From Sycon ciliatum (taxonomy: Eukaryota > Porifera > Calcarea > Leucosolenida > Sycettidae), in assembly GCF_964019385.1 (NCBI RefSeq), contig NC_088650.1, positions 30,283,161-30,347,160 on the forward strand: a stretch of DNA of 64,000 bases, given 5' to 3'. The notes beneath the pieces are model-generated. The model made no database searches, had not been told where the DNA came from, and saw only the letters and a program-made list of their open reading frames with translations. Numbering within the stretch: position 1 is the stretch's first letter; each line of letters opens with the position of its first letter. Below are positions 24,915-36,272 of the stretch, one piece after another. Position numbers and translations under genes: made by a program.

Positions 24915-27900
24915 ATGAGCAAGAAGGGGAAGCAGGCGAAATCGCCGATCAAGCTGGTGGTTCTCGGCGAAGGCGGCGTGGGCAAATCAGGTACCGTATT
25001 TTACCGGTTATAAGTCGACCCCGGTTATAGGTCGACCCCCCGTATCCGGAGGTCTTAATTATGTTTTTAAAGTGTTTGCCCAACGAAGCACTGCTAACCG
25101 CTCCCTTCTACTAACACATGAACAAATCACATAAACACTCCTCATTGGATTCTGAAACATCCCAATCCTTGAAAAAGGCAAATAAACTTGGCAAAAATGC
25201 ATACACATGGTGCACTCGTGTATTCAGTGCAGGTCATTTTTGGAAGATACCGATAATTCCCGGTTATAACTATATAAGTCGAATCCCGGTTGTAAGTCGA
25301 CCCCCACCTTTTCTCCTGCTATTTTCAGTCGTAAAAGGTCGACTTATAACCGGAAAAATACGGTAGGCGGCCTGGCGCGTGGCCTAAGACAATATTGCCT
25401 GTAGCGTGGCTGGAATACTACCCTCACTACTAGCTGGATCATTAGTGTCGTGTACAGCAACAGGTGCAACCCGCTGCATTATTTAACAGTGTAGTAGGCA
25501 GACGCTCTTCTGAATACAGGCAGGATTTAATGGGGAGCAGCATTCATATGTTGACATCAGAATCTGACCTGTTCACCAAGGACATGCAGCTGATTGCCAG
25601 CTGCCGGTGCACATTTAGTACGGTACTGAAACGTTGGGCACACGAATCAAAGTAGCTTTTCAACCTTATGCGAAACCTTTTACGCTATCCATCCTGGAAT
25701 AGAAAGTTTCAATTTGTTTTCAAGGTTTCACAGAAGAGTTGAACAGAAATGAAGAAGACATCTTCGTTACTATACAAGTGTCTTGCTGCAGTTTCACCCT
25801 GTTGTTGTTGTCGTTGTCGTTGTCGTTGGCGTTGTTGTTGTTGTCGCCGTTGTCACTGCCGTGCATGTGCGTATCTCCCTCTCACTGTCCCTCACTTTCC
25901 AGCCCTAACCATTCAGTTTGTGAGTCATGAATTTTCAGCAGATTACGATCCTACAATCGGTAAGCTAACAATTACTTCAGTACAATGGTGCTGTTGACCT
26001 GTGTTAGTTGAATGGCTATTATGTTTTGAAGTGGCAGAGAGTTTTATATTCATCATTTTGTTTGCTGTTATCGGCTCCTTGTCTCCTGAACAAATAGCCT
26101 GGAAAGTGGTGCTGAGCACACAAACACACACACACACATACACACATACACACACACATACACACACACACACACACATACACATACACACACAATACGA
26201 TACAATAATGCCCATCCACAAATGATGGCAGGTCCTGAAAGGACCGACAGTGTTTCAGTCACGGGGAACAGAACTTCGAGTGGCGACGGCAAAAATCTCG
26301 GCCACAGTGACACCTGAAATCGCGAGTCACAGGACTAGGCAGCACACACCCAAGCACACGCTTTGCAGCCAAAATACATTGTAATGTCAGGTGTGCTTTG
26401 TGTGTGTGAGAGGCCGGACGTGTGTTCGCCGACACGTTTCCCCTAGAAATTTGTTTCATTTCAAAAGCGAATAGGAACCGTTCTATCTTTGTGAAGTCCA
26501 CTGAGACGACTTGCCGGAATAACGGGCTTTCAAGGCGGAACACTAGTGTACACCGGCTCCTGTTCCAGGGTACTAGTCATGGAGAAACCCGGCAACAAAA
26601 CATTACACCGTGGCCGTCATGACTCTCGCCGGATAGTAGTACTGCTCTTCTCCTCATACTCTGGCTGGTCTCACCTGCACATGGCTCCGTCTTGGTTGTT
26701 GTGTGCGTTTGTTTGCACTACAGAGGATGCGTACAAAGTGACTTCTGACGTTGATAATGAAGCAGTGGATTTGGATATCCTGGATACTGCCGGTCAGGTA
26801 AAGTGATACAATACATGTACTGTTGATGCTGGTTTATTGCCAGGGATGTACAGTAAAATCTGTAACTAAAGACCACCGTGACTAGCGACCAGCCTGGTAC
26901 TACAGACCACTTCGCCAGGCACGGACGGTCTCACATTCATATATGGTTGTGTGGTGCAAACCTCTAACTAAGGACCACCTGCCACTAAAGACCGCTTTCT
27001 CTGGTCCCAAGGCCGGGGGTGGTCGTTAGTCACAGGTTTTACTATATACGATTGCGCTTCAGGGGTGGATACCTTTTTTTCCGGCTATAAGTTGACCCCG
27101 ATCACTTGGGGCCTCAATTTACCAGTTCAGTATTGATATGATCAATAGCGGTTGTGCCGGGGGGTTGCGCAGTCCTAAACTGGCGAACACCGGGCTGAGA
27201 AATAGTGCCAGGGCAAGCTTGAGTGAAGCGACTGGATCTCTGGTCGGTCGAGTTGCTCCCTGTACATCGGCACGTCGTCCCTACATCCCCTGTGTCTTGT
27301 TGTGTGTTTGTCTCCATATGTCTCTTTGTAGAGCTGTGTTCCCAATAAAAAATAAAAAAAATAAAAAAATCTCATTGAGCATCACTCTAGTTAGTAGACG
27401 TGTAAGTTAGCCTACGCTTTCATGTGCCGGGGGACTAGCTCACATGGTAGAGCGCTCGCTTAGCATGTGAGAGGTACCGGGATCGATACCCGGGTTCTCC
27501 AAGAAGTTCTTTTTTCTTCTTTTTTTTGTGACGCCAGCTCAGAAGTGTTCCTTGGTCAGAATTCTAGAAAGGGGAAATCTCTTGTTTTGCAATCACCAAA
27601 AAGCAGCAGTTGTCTGCACACAGGAACTGTTTCGATAGAAAAGCAAAAGATGAATGAACTGAGTTTGCAACTTTATCCACCTGTTACGTCCCCATTTTCC
27701 GATTCGGTTTTCTTCTTAATAGTACTCTGTTGAGCTACCAAAGTAAAATAAAATAGAGTGAATAGACAATTTTGATTATTATGCAACTTTTTAGCTTCAA
27801 AAGCATAATCAATAGGCCAAGCTGGATCGGCATACCATGAACTTCATTTCATAGCGAAAAGAAGAAAAATGTGAGTACAATCATCGACAGACATGGAGCG

Positions 27901-31012: not shown

Positions 31013-34000
31013 ACGTCACAGGTGCCTCTTCTTTATAAGTAAAGATATAGAAAACGTTCTAAAACAGAAATCGATGCTGTATTTTTGTAACATGGAAAAA
31101 TGTGGGCACAAGTTTTGCGATCCTTGGCTCACCATCTGAGTTCTTGATACTGTGATTTCACAAATGTTCGGTACTTTTATTTTCGGTACTTTCGGTGCAT
31201 CTATTTCATACCTAAAATTTCAATAACCGAACAAACACTAACACACGTAATTGTGACATAATCCGAAATTTCTGTTCACCTAGCCTGGCCTTTTGGCTCT
31301 TATACCGAAAAAATTTGAGCTCCTAAAATTTCTAAAATTAGAGTCCTTATACTATTTCTAGTGAACGTTGAGGGTGGGTGAGAATCGTTACCTCCGTTGC
31401 CACGGAAATCTGATAACGGAGCTTCCAGATCCACACTCTCAAGGAAAGTGCCTTAAAATCAGCACTGCAACATGCTGCCTTGTCACCATGCTCTTCAAAA
31501 GCCTTGGTTGTTGGAGGAAGGACACGCACGGACTAGCGATGCACCGACTTAATACTCACATCAGTAGCCTGCACTACTCTTCCAACCAGATTTCTTCGCT
31601 TGCGGGCACTGCCGCACCATGTGGCCAACTCTGCCACAGTTGAAACACGCCTGCTCCTCCGTGGTGGCAGCCGCCACAACAACATCGCCACGTACTCGAG
31701 TCAAGTAGTCCGAGGTCGCAGCCTTCAAAGCCCGCCATAGCACTCAGCCGCTGCAAATCGGCAACGTAGGCGTCGGGAGACTCGTCCACACGCATCGTCC
31801 GTGAGGTGAATTTGGCGTATGCCTGTGCCTTCGTCAGAGTGAACGACTGTTCCATTTTTTGCGCAGACTTTGTCTTTCTGATCGCTTGTCGGCATCAGCG
31901 AAAATTCAAGGAACGCATCATCTGTCAGGAACAACGGGAAATTCTTCATCTCCTTGTTGTCGGTGTCCCAACCTTGGATGTTAGCGAGCACCGGAAACTT
32001 GTCCCAAAGTCGCCCGAAATCGTCTCCGTTCCCACGGAGCGGCTGGAGAAAGTTGTCAAACTTTAGCGACATCTCGCTGGCGTGGCAGGGTTCGCACTCG
32101 TCAATGCAACACACACGTCCTGGGTTTCGGCACCAGTTGTGGAACCCACGTTCGACCACCCAGCACTAACGCAACACTTCGGATTAGGGAACAAGTTATA
32201 TTATGTGAGTTGGGAGAGACATAGAACCAGACTGAACTACACTGAACTAAAGATCAACTGAACTAATGAAAGACGGACGTGCAATATAAGAAAGAAGTCC
32301 AGCTACAGCGTTAGCTGACAAACTAAGAAACTGAAAGGCAGCAAAGACAATGGAAGGTACGCATCACTAGCCCCATTGTTGTTGCAACATGAATGCGGAT
32401 CCTACCTATCATGTAGCAGTAAAGCTAAACCGAGCCAAACCATTCGTGCGACACGGTTGGTCAATCAGACCGCGGACCAGTCGTGCCCTGCCGGTGACAT
32501 GATACATACAGCGCAGCTAAGCAAGGTCACCGCGACCAGACTGCAGCGGTGAGCTACAAGTGCACTATAGATGCATGGCTAGACACACACATGACAAAGT
32601 GTAGCGCAGCAGGCCACGGATTGCAGCGCACACCGCACGCTCGTCTAGACATGTCTACATCTTTCCTTCTGTTCTCTTTGATTTCAAATTTCGTTTTTCA
32701 TCATCCTCCCGATGTTTCGGGGTAAACAAGTTAGTTGTTTACGATAGGATTATATTCTCACTTGGCCATTGTGACAAATCATAAGAACGCCAACATCTAA
32801 AGGATGCTGCATGAAAGTAGGCAGCTGCGAGATGCGTATCTCGCGCATGCTCTTGCACGGCTACGTAATGCATTACATCATAATACAACATCCCCTTCGT
32901 CATAAGGAGTTTAACAACCTACATCACATACCGTACGTACACGACGGCGTGTTCACAATATAGAACATAACATCCAACAATAGCTCTATGTACACTGTAA
33001 CAATCATGAATGGCACACGACGACGTGCTAACAATACAGAGACATAGTATCCAACAATAGCTCTATGTACAATATAACAATGGCACCTCAGCTAATGTGA
33101 CATAAGCGAACAGGTCCATAAGGCCTCTCTTGCCCTACACATCCAGGATTGTCCTGGGTGCGACTGCGCGGCCAGACCGTGTTCGATACAGCTGGGTGGC
33201 AGGTTCAGCAGGCTGGCTGACGTCACACGGTGACGGCGGCTGAGACTGGCTAATGTCGCTCCACGGCGACGGCACGTCACTCAGCGGCTGAGGCCCGCCA
33301 ATGTCGCTGTGCGTCGACGGCTGAGGGCCTGCGGGACTGGCATCCGGCGGGAAGTGGACCCGCCTCTCTCTGAGGTGGGTACGGTTGCGCCTCACTTCTC
33401 TCCCATGGTCAGGCTGCACCATGTATGACCGTGGCCCGTTGGCAGACTGGGGTACGATACCAGGTTCCCACAGGTGCGTGGTCGGGCTGCGGATGCCGAC
33501 GTGCTGACCAGGAGCTAGGGGGCGGAGAGACTGCGCTCGCTGGTCATGGTGCACTTTCTGCTGGTCCTGCCGTTCCTCGAGCTTCTGTCGGATGGCCTCG
33601 TCCCGAGTGTCGCGCTGGTGTTTTCGAGGCAGGTTGTCCTGTACCTGACGACCGAACAGCATCTCGGCCGGCGACGGTAAGCCCTGGCACACTGGGGTGG
33701 CGTGAATGCACAGCAGTGCTAAGTGCGGGTCGGTCCCGCTCTCCCTTGCCTTCTCGAGAGCTCTCTTAGCGATCTTGACTTGCGATTCGATAAACCCGTT
33801 ACTCTGCGGGTGATGTGGCGACGACATACTGTGGCGGAATCCATATTCGGCAGCGAACTCCGTGAACAGATGGCTGCTGTACTGCAGCCCGTTGTCCGAC
33901 TTCAGCACGGCTGGGATGCCATGCTCACCGAAAATCTCATTGAGGTGCTGGATGATGGCCCTGCTGGTTGCTTGTCCGGCAGGCAGCTTCCGGGTGATGA

Positions 34001-36272
34001 AGTACTTGGAGTAGTAGTCGGCGGCAATGAGGTATTCTGACCCGCCGAGGCAGAACAGGTCCGTGCCGAAGGTGTGCCATGCCCTTGGCGGAATATCGGG
34101 CTGCACCAGCGGTTCCTTGGCTTGTTGACTCAAGTTCTGGTCCACGTATGTGGGCGTGGGTTCGAATCCCACTTCTGACACCATGTTTCGGGGTAAACAA
34201 GTTAGTTGTTTACGATAGGATTATATTCTCACGTGGCCATTGTGACAAATCATAAGGACGCCAACATCTAAAGGATGCTGCATGAAAGTAGGCAGCTGCG
34301 AGATGCGTTCAATCTGTTTTTGTTTCTCTTCTTCTCCCGGTTTCCTGATGCGTGAAGTAGGCGCGGATGCCGAGACCATTGGTCGGCGGAGCCTGCAGCA
34401 CCCCATCACCACCGCTGCGTTGCATTTGCAGCCCCATTCAGTCAATGTCTTGTTAGTCTGTTGTTTTGTCATTTCCTGCTTCTTTCTTCTTTTACGAATT
34501 GGGTGCGTGGTTTCAAGTAAAAAATAAAATAAATAAAAAATGCGTATCTCGCGCATGCTCTTGCACGGCTACGTAATGCATTACATCATAATACAACACC
34601 CGACACCCCAAGTCTCTTGTCCTTCCACCAACTGGCAATTACTTTGCTAAATCCTTCCTTTTTCTTATCGCTGTTGCTTGGAGTAAACTTCCTGCTGATA
34701 TACGTTCACTCGATAGTCCCACGCTATTTAATCGCCAGGTAAGGAAGCTTTATGAAGTTTACCGCTTCTCAGTTTCCGGCATACCTAGTTTCACGTGTTG
34801 AACAATATAGTCTAAATCCGCTGCTGCAGTTATTTTGTTTTAGTGCCTTTCCAGTGTTCTATTAGCACCCCTGGTTCTCAATCTATTGTTCTTCCTCTCC
34901 TTTGACTTCAAAAATCTCAGATTTTGAGTTTTTTGCACTCCATACATAAATTTATTCTCATTATTTATATAGTATTGGTTTGGTGAGACTCCCATGATAG
35001 GTATCCATTTACCTCTGGAGAATCCGTAAATAAACAAACAAACAAAGACATTGACGGTAGACTAGAGATGAAGGCTATCACCTGCAGCCAGTCAATGGAT
35101 ACTACATACGTAGTTGTAGAACACAGACATACAGGTGAGAATGCAGCACTTCGGATGGCATCAACGAACATGTGCTGCATACCGGTTCCATTTCACCGAA
35201 TAGATCAGGCGGTTGGTGGAGCTGTGGCTTGAATCTCAAGCGCCAGGCAGCTCACCAGCTCCAATGGCTTTCTCGCCACCAAAGTGGACCTCCTCGGCAC
35301 TTCTTGAACAGTGCATCTGCTCAGTCTGTGAGGCCAACAATCTAATACAAGCCACAAAAGAAAAAAACTCATGACAGAAAGCTTCTTTTGCTGAGTCTCC
35401 GGCAATGAAGAGTAAAAGCCGCACTACTTTAAACACCAGCATGGTAGTTCACCCATACAACAGTCAGTGTGGCTTATGCTAGGATGTACAAATTTACGGT
35501 GATAAACAGGGTAGATGTCTGTATTCCGTGACAAAAAAAGCTGGGTGCGGCTTATACTCTAGTATAGTGCGGCTTATACTTTGGAGAATACGGCGTACAT
35601 GTACTTAAGTTGTTCATTGCAAGTTTACACTTTTTACACTTGATGTGTTCGTTTGTTTGACTGGTTCTGTGCAGAGCGACCTTGTCGATGAACGCCAAGT
35701 GACGGTCGAAGAAGTGACAAGCCTTGGCAAGGAGCTAAACTGCCCGTACCTGGAAACATCAGCGTTAAAACGTTCTAACGTTGACGAGGTCTTTCATGAG
35801 GTAAAGTCCCCTCTATTTGCTTGTTCAGCATGGGATTATTTGCACATGCCGCGCCAGTTTTGTGAAATGCATTTTTCTATCTTGTGCCATTGCTTGGACT
35901 TTGGATTAAACCTGATAAAGCAAAGGGATTTGCTCTTGAAGCTGCGGTGTATCCTGTTCTCATTTCAGTCAACTCCGATACCTACGTTCGTGTGACGCTG
36001 ATGCCAAGTGTGTGCTAAAGAGATCATCTTGTTTTGTTTTAATTCGGATTGCGCATGCTGCGAAATGGTCTTGAATGCTTGGACCGCCTGCATGTACATG
36101 TATTATTGTCTTCAGTGTGTTTCGCCCGGTGCTCATGGTTTGGATACGTGCGATGTTTGTTTGTGTTTAGGCTGTGAGACTGGTGTGGGCGGATAAAAAA
36201 CACTACCGTCTTCGGCATGGCGGTGAAAGAAGTGGCGACAACTGTTCTGGCCGATGTTGTATCATTCTTTGA
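24915..36272 (+). CDS. Ras-family small GTPase, M-Ras/R-Ras-like, complete
   Basis: This is a membrane-anchored GTP-binding switch of the Ras family. Exons 24915-24990, 25903-25959, 26724-26797, 29621-29791, 35675-35800 and 36171-36272 join in phase to 201 residues and a TGA. P-loop GEGGVGKS is at 18-25, switch I YDPTIED at 40-46, G3 DTAGQ at 65-69 with the catalytic Gln, NKSD at 125-128 and TSAL at 154-157. The C-terminus CCIIL gives a CaaX box (Cys198) whose final Leu predicts geranylgeranylation, with a neighbouring Cys that could be palmitoylated. AGQEVFSAVRDEYMRDGEGF is closest by eye to M-Ras and R-Ras. Glu at P-loop position 19 and the DNEAVDLDIL strand are divergent, so orthology is open. 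The ATG is preceded by an in-frame stop in the leader. A MITE abuts the first splice donor. The introns hold a tRNA gene and several transposons. Confidence 0.93.
24994..25363. mobile_element. 370-bp MITE inserted at the first splice donor of the Ras gene
   Basis: Left end CCGTATTTTACCGGTTATAA and inverted right end CCGTATTTTTCCGGTTATAA are flanked by TA (24992-24993 and 25364-25365). The left TA supplies the T of the donor GT. The interior repeats gtcgaccccc-type words. A family with similar ends is at 44416-44728. Confidence 0.85.
26117..26195. repeat. (CA)n microsatellite in a Ras intron
   Basis: CA dinucleotides with periodic TA interruptions. ORFs of His-Thr or Cys-Val repeats here are artefacts. 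Confidence 0.9.
26851..27044. mobile_element. MITE of the CAGTAAAA family with TA duplication
   Basis: Left end CAGTAAAATCTGTAACTAAA and inverted right end TAGTAAAACCTGTGACTAAC lie between TA dinucleotides, with gaccacc words inside. It is a relative of 3186-3345. Confidence 0.75.
27138..27378 (+). mobile_element. short retroelement tail with A-rich end
   Basis: A GC-rich body is followed by aataaaaaataaaaaaaataaaaaaat, the look of a SINE or LINE 3' end on the plus strand. It lies 50 bases upstream of the tRNA-Ala gene. It shares only general architecture with the insertion at 34308-34539. Confidence 0.4.
27429..27501 (+). tRNA. tRNA-Ala (anticodon AGC)
   Basis: The 73-nt sequence folds as a canonical cloverleaf. 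The acceptor arm GGGGGAC pairs with GTTCTCC, with two G-U pairs. The D arm contains TAGCTCACATGGTAGAGC, the anticodon arm CTCGC-TTAGCAT-GTGAG carries AGC, and the T arm is CCGGG-ATCGATA-CCCGG, as in animal tRNA-Ala. There is no intron and no encoded CCA. It lies in intron 3 of the Ras gene on the same strand, followed within 10 bases by T runs. Confidence 0.93.
27510..27527 (+). terminator. RNA polymerase III terminator of the tRNA-Ala gene
   Basis: Two T runs (six at 27510-27515 and eight at 27520-27527) lie directly downstream of the tRNA, the standard pol III stop. Confidence 0.8.
28359..29503 (-). pseudogene. decayed transposon-associated ORF in Ras intron 3
   Basis: Two minus-strand frames give one broken protein. 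The upstream part (29503 to about 29186) contains HNVIRPQILPIHIHDVCIPN and LHFHLGILPLLFEALI, followed by a Gln-rich coiled-coil-like stretch interrupted by a TAG. The downstream part (to 28359) includes HLEEQLVSAKV and the C-terminal block KLHLLECHLVPCMERFGIAL then LGEQGGESIHHKFNMLRH. That block resembles ORFs repeated in cnidarian and sponge genomes and thought to belong to DNA transposons. This is from memory and the superfamily is not fixed. A frameshift near 29075 and the stop show it is inactive. It lies antisense to the Ras gene and ends about 110 bases from exon 4. Confidence 0.55.
30042..30229. mobile_element. 188-bp pogo/Tigger-type MITE
   Basis: CAGTCAGACCTCGCTTA at both ends in inverted orientation, with TA at both flanks (30040-30041 and 30230-30231). 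CAGTCA..CCTCG termini plus TA are typical of pogo-like elements. Confidence 0.85.
30295..31155. repeat. 108-bp direct repeat flanking a 645-bp segment
   Basis: 30295-30402 and 31048-31155 are near-identical direct repeats (gaaaacgttctaaaacag to ttcttgatactgt). The interval holds a minus-strand Pro-rich ORF starting MMDNPDQPPEGVTDVPPSPS near 30585, CA repeats, duplicated cgcacgcttcgcgtgctcag hairpins and a duplicated ggtgcctcttctttataag. This could be a segmental duplication with later insertion. Assignment is uncertain. Confidence 0.6.
31561..32072 (-). pseudogene. gag fragment of an LTR retrotransposon (frameshifted)
   Basis: On the minus strand an ATG at 32072 opens MSLKFDNFLQPLRGNGDDF and a gag-like capsid segment. 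It continues after a frameshift near 31855 as AYAKFTSRTMRVDESPDAYV, and after another near 31740 as a CCHC zinc knuckle, CFNCGRVGHMVRQC, close to the stop at 31561. This order (capsid then one zinc knuckle) is that of Ty3/gypsy-type gag. No protease or RT follows, so it is a truncated, dead copy. It is separate from the integrase element at 32713-34598, which has its own LTRs and target duplication. Confidence 0.75.
32118..32134 (-). other. primer binding site of the gag-bearing retroelement
   Basis: The minus strand reads TGGTGCCGAAACCCAGGA, directly after a CCACA-AC that would end a 5' LTR and 45 bases before the gag ATG. This is the usual position for a tRNA primer site. The matching LTR should occupy the sequence above 32136, but no second copy is in the window, so its start is undetermined. 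Confidence 0.6.
32713..32890 (-). repeat. 3' LTR
   Basis: 178 bp, TG to CA, preceded on the sense strand by the purine tract GAAGGGGA. It is intact and nearly identical to the other LTR. Confidence 0.9.
33135..34184 (-). CDS. Ty3/gypsy-type integrase (catalytic core and C-terminal region)
   Basis: This 349-codon intact ORF encodes an integrase that would join LTR DNA to the host genome. The catalytic triad is visible: Asp42 in GTDLF, Asp97 in KSDNGLQY and Glu133 in NGFIESQVK, with 35 residues between the last two (DD35E). HHPQSNGFIE and PAEMLFGRQ are typical of the family. The N-terminal HHCC zinc finger is missing: the frame enters just before QAKEPLVQPDIPPRAW. The first 20 codons are antisense tRNA sequence. 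The ATG is made by the last base of the LTR plus the TG of the primer site. The tail is Pro/Ser-rich with no chromodomain that I can see. Confidence 0.85.
   Translation of the reverse strand: MVSEVGFEPTPTYVDQNLSQQAKEPLVQPDIPPRAWHTFGTDLFCLGGSEYLIAADYYSKYFITRKLPAGQATSRAIIQHLNEIFGEHGIPAVLKSDNGLQYSSHLFTEFAAEYGFRHSMSSPHHPQSNGFIESQVKIAKRALEKARESGTDPHLALLCIHATPVCQGLPSPAEMLFGRQVQDNLPRKHQRDTRDEAIRQKLEERQDQQKVHHDQRAQSLRPLAPGQHVGIRSPTTHLWEPGIVPQSANGPRSYMVQPDHGREVRRNRTHLRERRVHFPPDASPAGPQPSTHSDIGGPQPLSDVPSPWSDISQSQPPSPCDVSQPAEPATQLYRTRSGRAVAPRTILDV
34127..34183 (+). other. DNA copy of the 3' half of mature tRNA-Leu(CAA) as an extended primer site
   Basis: The plus strand reads as the 3' half of tRNA-Leu(CAA). 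It has anticodon loop CTCAAGT and stem half TCTGG, a variable arm CCAC-GTAT-GTGG that pairs perfectly, T arm GTGGG-TTCGAAT-CCCAC, acceptor half TTCTGAC, discriminator A and CCA. The intron that animal tRNA-Leu(CAA) genes carry after the anticodon is absent and CCA is present, both marks of a copied mature tRNA. A normal primer site would be only 12-18 nt. Confidence 0.85.
34184..34598 (-). repeat. 5' LTR interrupted by a retroposon
   Basis: It matches the 3' LTR except that 34308-34539 is inserted after the sequence agatgcg. Its last base abuts the primer binding site with no spacer. Confidence 0.9.
34308..34539 (+). mobile_element. SINE-like retroposon inserted in the 5' LTR
   Basis: 232 bp ending in aaaaaataaaataaataaaaa, flanked by a 5-bp duplication ATGCG (34303-34307 and 34540-34544). 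Removing it restores the LTR exactly. An inner gccgagaccattggtcggcg motif resembles one at 39969-39990 near the LINE tail, suggesting a shared 3' region. Confidence 0.8.
35400..35600. repeat. diverged repeat with gcggcttata words upstream of Ras exon 5
   Basis: gcggcttatac recurs at 35546 and 35570, and ggagaatacggcgta near 35583 resembles CCGTATT-type MITE ends. It is probably a decayed relative of 24994-25363. Boundaries are unclear. Confidence 0.35.

Follow-up and report, generated by a model that had tools for sequence, protein, structure and literature searches.

Recurrent capture of primer tRNA-Leu by defective LTR retrotransposons of Sycon ciliatum, with an apparent signature of tRNA modification

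Failed second strand transfers have usually been studied in test tubes or in cultured cells. The plus strand of HIV-1 normally halts just short of m1A58 in the primer tRNA, and loss of the methyltransferase leads to extension; the longest over-extended products are described as unusable for transfer (PMC13191261). In Ty1 and Ty3, a stretch of the tRNA is copied into plus-strand DNA and is normally not inherited (PMC5371799). Reverse-transcribed tRNA has been described at retroviral DNA joints of HIV and MLV, partly with deletions and circles (PMC12220202, including Colicelli and Goff 1986 and HITME 2006 as described there). Two further kinds of element bear comparison: Helenus, an LTR element with tRNA-derived sequence inside its LTRs (PMC10886601), and the TRIM elements, which are shortened, non-autonomous LTR elements (PMC6934838).

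The locus described here lies in a 64,000-nt stretch of S. ciliatum DNA, which was analysed as a whole and is referred to as the window. It is an LTR element with a long copy of tRNA-Leu beside its 5' LTR. As in HIV-1 when m1A58 is missing, the plus strand appears to have passed A58 into the primer tRNA; unlike the HIV-1 products as described in PMC13191261, those found here are integrated and inherited, occur in several LTR retrotransposon families, and have ectopic joints and an internal deletion. The parent element resembles Ty1 and Ty3 (PMC5371799) in being an LTR retrotransposon primed by a host tRNA, but differs in that the tRNA stretch has been inherited in exceptional copies with deletions. 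Whereas the HIV and MLV joints described in PMC12220202 involve non-cognate tRNAs in cultured cells or clones, the tRNA here is the presumed primer, sits at the primer-site position, and is found in the genome repeatedly. Unlike Helenus (PMC10886601), the window element has its tRNA copy once, between the 5' LTR and the interior, and so is not an element of that kind. Its shortened, non-autonomous state recalls TRIM elements, but these are <1 kb, amplified and non-coding (PMC6934838), whereas the window copy is 1886 bp long, contains an integrase open reading frame (ORF) and is single among those scored. In titles and abstracts, with subscription papers mostly outside the search, we recognised no report of LTR retrotransposons that had integrated together with an extended copy of the tRNA priming them.

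The window element and its tRNA copy

The element occupies 1886 bp on the minus strand of the window, with the following features:

32708..32712, no strand: left target duplication CCCGA, 5 bp (sequence)
32713..32890, minus strand: 3' LTR, 178 bp, TG...CA (LTR comparison)
32891..32898, minus strand: purine tract adjoining the 3' LTR, sense GAAGGGGA (read by eye)
33135..34184, minus strand: 349-aa ORF that begins with about 20 codons contributed by the LTR/tRNA junction and the tRNA copy and continues into the integrase core and C-terminal part, without the zinc finger
34125..34126, no strand: deletion joint with two extra bases, lying between integrase (to 34124) and the tRNA copy
34127..34183, plus strand: 57 nt copied from the 3' end of spliced, CCA-tailed tRNA-Leu(CAA), the final 13 nt being the normal primer site
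34184..34598, minus strand: 5' LTR, interrupted, 415 bp (178 bp of LTR plus 237 bp)
34309..34545, no strand: later 237-bp insertion within the 5' LTR, with an A-rich end
34599..34603, no strand: right target duplication CCCGA, 5 bp (sequence)

The CCCGA duplication reported in a first-pass annotation of the window is present on both sides of the element, whose LTR ends are TG...CA. That annotation also took both LTRs to be intact at 178 bp, which holds for the 3' LTR but not for the 5' LTR, split by the 237-bp insertion. With the insertion set aside, the LTR pair differs at 2 of 178 aligned bases. ATGCGT repeats lie at 34303-34308 and 34540-34545 (read partly by eye); 34303-34545, with its 6-bp direct repeats, is perhaps a short retroposon. 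The deletion joint can also be read by eye as an AGTC microhomology with a CAA duplication (sense strand). Elsewhere in the window, a tRNA-Ala(AGC) gene lies at 27429-27501.

The tRNA copy abuts the 5' LTR and is identical at 57 of 57 positions to the spliced host tRNA-Leu(CAA) with CCA added. It passes G37 and the splice joint unchanged and breaks off two bases into the 5' anticodon stem, where the element resumes at 34124. A 25-nt piece of it that includes the terminal CCA is found at one place in the window, against a chance expectation of 0. Of 17 host stretches fetched, 16 contain tRNA-Leu genes: seven Leu(CAA) genes (L069-L075), all with an intron of 36–39 nt, and nine Leu(CAG) genes (L076-L082, L084, L085), which have no intron; CCA is encoded in neither group. 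Since the copy is spliced and CCA-tailed and the genes carry introns and lack CCA, the template was a mature RNA. Splicing, the CCA tail and the primer-site position rule out insertion of a tRNA gene or pseudogene. The annotation's identification of the 57 nt as the intronless, CCA-ended 3' half of mature tRNA-Leu(CAA) thus passes the comparison with the host tRNA, and its placing of the break in the 5' anticodon stem agrees with our reading of the junction. Its paired variable arm and T arm stand as sequence identical to the tRNA, but the predicted fold of these arms is no better than that of shuffled sequences (z −0.72); folding was dropped, and the evidence is therefore sequence identity. 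ARAGORN called no tRNA at the site, because only the 3' part of a tRNA is present.

Recurrence in the parent family and in other families

A query with the whole element gave 46 matches (among the best 40 of 378 candidates scored), 38 of which stop at query position 1411-1412, the joint. By their coordinates, two full-length parent copies are 5115 and 5121 bp long. Pfam domains on one of them (L004) follow the order RVT_1, RT_RNaseH, Integrase_H2C2, rve; this arrangement of reverse transcriptase, RNase H, zinc-binding domain and integrase core identifies the parent family as Ty3/gypsy-type. The family also has the TG...CA LTRs, tRNA primer site and short target duplication of Ty3/gypsy LTR retrotransposons, and it may be similar to Steamer-like elements (mag/Steamer).

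Ordinary relatives have a 13-nt primer site. An exact whole-genome pattern, with A, G or T as its leading letter and with L013 and the changed-site copies L032 and L035 falling outside, found 48 own-family junctions, of which 44 have the short site only and 4 are extended (31–57 nt of tRNA). These 44 rule out that the 57 nt are ordinary internal sequence; full-length relatives with the same 57 nt, which would have contradicted the first-pass annotation, did not occur among these junctions. Among the 29 own-family junctions in the loci read, tRNA identity spans exactly 13 nt in 23, the site carries a point change in two, and the other four are extended. The 29-junction list favours long sites because the query held one, and neither 4/29 nor 4/39 was used as a rate, as those lists rank extended copies first. 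The four extended copies are as follows:

Window copy: 57 nt of tRNA; 1886 bp; target duplication CCCGA; 2 LTR differences; joint with 2 extra bases
L010: 42 nt of tRNA; 1957 bp; target duplication AAGGG; 1 LTR difference; joint without extra bases or overlap
L011: 31 nt of tRNA; 2792 bp; target duplication CACAC; 0 LTR differences; joint with 1 extra base
L012: 38 nt of tRNA; 3760 bp; target duplication GCCAC; 0 LTR differences; joint with a 2-nt overlap

In all four, the U5 end of the LTR carries a copy of mature tRNA running past position 58, and the 3' side is collinear to its LTR end. Compared with standard copies spanning the same point, the tRNA is joined to a different internal point in each. 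The source is Leu(CAA) in three; the 31-nt copy of L011 fits Leu(CAA) and Leu(CAG) equally. These are independent insertions, recent by their LTRs. The annotation had suggested read-through into the primer tRNA combined with internal deletion, and the three further copies, representing the same event at other points, strengthen that proposal. L013 and L035 are short family members that have lost their interior and retain a primer site of the ordinary kind (with one changed base in L035), so deletion does not require tRNA capture.

Captures extend beyond this family. In the assembly (538 Mb, 313 contigs), an exact search with a 24-mer that ends in CCA finds 36 places, 4 of them in the own family; with 3 mismatches allowed there are 350 places, including tRNA genes, against 0 for the control. 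We read 1.5 kb on each side of 30 loci, including two of the own family, and about 200 nt at 10 more; LTR comparison sorts those outside the own family into several families and some single loci. In the second family, with LTR TGTTGTGTCATG, 5 of 35 exact junctions are extended and 30 are unextended; in the two families together, 9 of 83 surviving, exactly matching 5' junctions are extended. The family with LTR TGTAGTGGTTCT gave 10 exact-site copies, 9 of them extended, a proportion not used as a rate because the normal site of this family may be shorter than 13 nt. A count of 26 extended sites in 166 was likewise dropped as a rate, because the leading letter of the pattern excluded standard copies of at least one family.

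Five of the other-family loci have perfect target duplications: L039 (GATCT), L044 (GTCTC), L047 (ATACA), L051 (GTCCC) and L068 (CATGT), those of L044 and L068 having been spotted by eye and then checked. The 3' LTR is reduced to its last 61 nt in L039, 62 nt in L044, 12 nt in L047 and 16 nt in L068; in L044, about 260 nt separate this remnant from the tRNA copy, and the 5' LTR ends in TA. L042 and L053 are similar by eye but imperfect (a 7-nt remnant matching at 6 of 7; a duplication matching at 4 of 5). A convincing second LTR end with a target duplication was not found on the inner side in 23 of 28 other-family loci searched over 1.5 kb per side. Pol sequence lies near the tRNA copy in L056 and L065, and integrase lies directly beside it in L062. 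In L043, L060 and L097 the LTRs are inverted around the tRNA copy, as if two strong-stop strands had been joined.

A capture need not come with a large deletion: in L045 and L046, gag-like sequence is retained next to a 43-nt capture. The joint is shared by L094 and L095, and these four related copies lie at 96.6-97.2 Mb of one contig (C1). The DNA flanking L045 and L046, the two of the four that were compared, is homologous; this argues against amplification of a captured site and for a single insertion that was later duplicated, and the group is probably a segmental duplication.

Where copying stopped, and bases read from the tRNA

The 42 capture loci form 41 distinct combinations of flank and length. 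Copying ended in the variable arm (29–44 nt from the 3' end) in 33 combinations, in the anticodon arm in six, and at ≤28 nt in two; none extends past nucleotide 57 of 87. As L045, L046 and L094/L095 were counted as three of the 41 and are related, the independent junctions number at most 39. Shorter captures are under-represented because capture places were found, among those read, by a 24-nt match with ≤2 mismatches, and chance matches at a joint can add a base or two to the copy length.

When base 58 was left free in the search, it was A in 52 of 53 matches (a few of which are not captures), the single T being that of L097. In zebrafish, m1A58 is described in nearly all tRNAs (PMC11417395). 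That the primers lacked the methyl group at A58 seems more likely than that this reverse transcriptase reads a methylated A58 correctly, and unmethylated primers would also explain copying past the usual stop.

The Leu(CAG) copies, all in other families, show a more specific pattern. The variable loop of the gene has a single C, 36 nt from the 3' end, and 19 of the 20 loci whose copy reaches this base have a different letter there; at any other position, at most 2 of 26 differ. A strict count made by hand, taking only copies of at least 38 nt and counting the duplicated group once, gave a non-C letter in 14 of 15 (8 T, 6 A; one C, in L043). The weakest of these is L054, which is only 38 nt long and lies within a T run; L041 (G) and L048 (A) were left out because they end at or next to the base. 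At the host gene places the base is C without exception (24 of 24, nine of which were read as tRNA-Leu(CAG) genes), and a 25th match is the capture L068. Conversely, a search for a non-C letter at this base found 13 places (6 T, 7 A), all of them captures already read as loci. Fisher's exact test of 14/1 against 0/24 gives 1e-9 with junctions treated as independent, although joints from one LTR family with the same letter T might not all be so. Three further captures (L057, L062, L089) end at 35 nt, one base short of this C. The Leu(CAA) copies, including that of the window, have no such hot spot.

In mammals, m3C is described at position e2/47d of Leu-CAG (PMC8373065), and for zebrafish m3C at e2/47d is described in Leu-CAG and Ser tRNAs, Leu-CAA not being named in that description (PMC11417395). 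The variable-loop C of S. ciliatum tRNA-Leu(CAG) appears to correspond to m3C47d of the vertebrate tRNA, and its place in the loop points to e2 exactly. The T and A letters appear to be heritable traces left when reverse transcriptase passed a modified base of the tRNA.

Origin of the captures and alternative explanations

The window locus is a defective member of a multi-copy family of ~5.1-kb, tRNA-Leu-primed LTR retrotransposons of the Ty3/gypsy type, and we infer the following order of steps. In the course of plus-strand strong-stop synthesis, reverse transcriptase would copy the LTR and then run into the primer tRNA past the usual A58 stop, reaching G30 of mature tRNA-Leu(CAA). Because the over-long end does not pair beyond the 13-nt primer site, normal second strand transfer would fail; the nascent plus strand would jump to minus-strand DNA inside integrase, with little or no homology, and its extension to the 3' LTR would yield a two-LTR DNA lacking everything from gag through the integrase zinc finger. 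Integrase from complete elements would then insert this product, making the usual 5-bp duplication. Accidents of this kind have recurred in the genome, across several LTR families, with tRNA-Leu(CAA) copied in some cases and tRNA-Leu(CAG) in others. A plus-strand jump explains the direct-orientation joints, which fall in the leader, gag, reverse transcriptase, integrase and the last bases of the 3' LTR. The three loci with inverted LTRs are not predicted by a simple jump. Taken as a whole, the account of a defective Ty3/gypsy-type copy arising from over-extended plus-strand strong-stop DNA by ectopic joining, and of its recurrence, is very probably correct.

Its main rival concerns the last step only: the same over-extended strand could have been joined otherwise, through host end joining to broken or unfinished element DNA or through switching by an unfinished minus strand. 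Joints with no overlap, one or two extra bases or a 2-nt overlap are equally typical of end joining, and the inverted-LTR products also suit it. However, the outer ends are still proper LTR ends with 5-bp duplications, where these were found, and the four own-family copies are collinear on the 3' side to the LTR end, as continued synthesis predicts; we consider this route possible but unlikely. More distant is the idea of an ancestral master element whose primer site was long and tRNA-like and which later lost pieces, such that captures would be inherited rather than recurrent. The high proportion of extended copies in the TGTAGTGGTTCT family and the common junction of L045, L046, L094 and L095 could be cited for it, but that junction looks like a segmental duplication (two of four compared), and within the TGTAGTGGTTCT family L088 copied Leu(CAA) whereas L039, L056, L060 and L090 copied Leu(CAG). 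Where short sites could be counted, most junctions are unextended (44/48 and 30/35), and the 42 loci represent up to 39 independent junctions by flank and length. Inheritance from such a master is very improbable, nor does the tRNA piece have the appearance of an enlarged primer site maintained by a lineage. For the T and A letters, the alternative source is a tRNA gene variant missing from the assembly, which, in 313 contigs, may be incomplete. Yet both letters are seen, in different LTR families and at one position only, and the assembled gene places (C in all 24) and the non-C places (captures in all 13) separate cleanly; a hidden gene is a very improbable source beside a modified base.

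The integrase ORF also calls for an explanation. The annotation had described an open frame with DD35E and a start codon created at the LTR/primer-site junction, and this is what we find: 349 aa from that ATG, in a frame that crosses the tRNA copy into integrase, with an integrase core match in the product and D,D35E spacing read by eye in the translation. The join, placed by alignment at about residue 500 of the parent pol frame, where the zinc-binding domain match (445-499) ends, bears out the claim that the tRNA copy is joined to integrase just after the position of its zinc finger. The intact frame, catalytic residues and new start codon might suggest an integrase-only mobile element, as the annotation proposed, or a domesticated gene. 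However, the genome search it called for found the window junction at the window locus only, among the best 40 of 215 candidates scored, and no mobile integrase-only family emerges. Compared with seven other copies, the private integrase substitutions comprise 15 replacement and 7 silent changes, with no sign of purifying selection, which was rejected on this count. With the zinc finger absent and the 5' LTR split as well, we give almost no credence to a functional gene here; the ORF looks like a by-product of the rearrangement, reading through the tRNA copy into integrase, we think, by chance.

The recurrent capture, with its apparent modification signature, is of real interest and wider than the window locus. 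Several failed second strand transfers are preserved with their target duplications, so that natural insertions allow stops, read-through and joining to be measured, and one likely cause, an unblocked primer tRNA, is tied to one source of deleted elements. Dozens of similar accidents appear to preserve a copying error at a modified tRNA base. On present evidence it is reasonably likely that the genome keeps a heritable archive of tRNA modification, recording the isoacceptor used, position 58 read as plain A, and a methylated variable-loop C of tRNA-Leu(CAG) misread as U or A, and that over-extended strands are not dead ends but can yield gene-stripped elements. The position-specific T and A letters suggest that past germ-line tRNA modification may be readable from genome sequence alone, an idea testable in any genome with tRNA-Leu(CAG)- or tRNA-Ser-primed elements. 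At four further places (C8:12631857, C9:25516968, C11:1820532 and C12:506466), CCA-tailed 3' ends of what we take to be another tRNA-Leu type are followed by TG; these are possible captures of a third isoacceptor.
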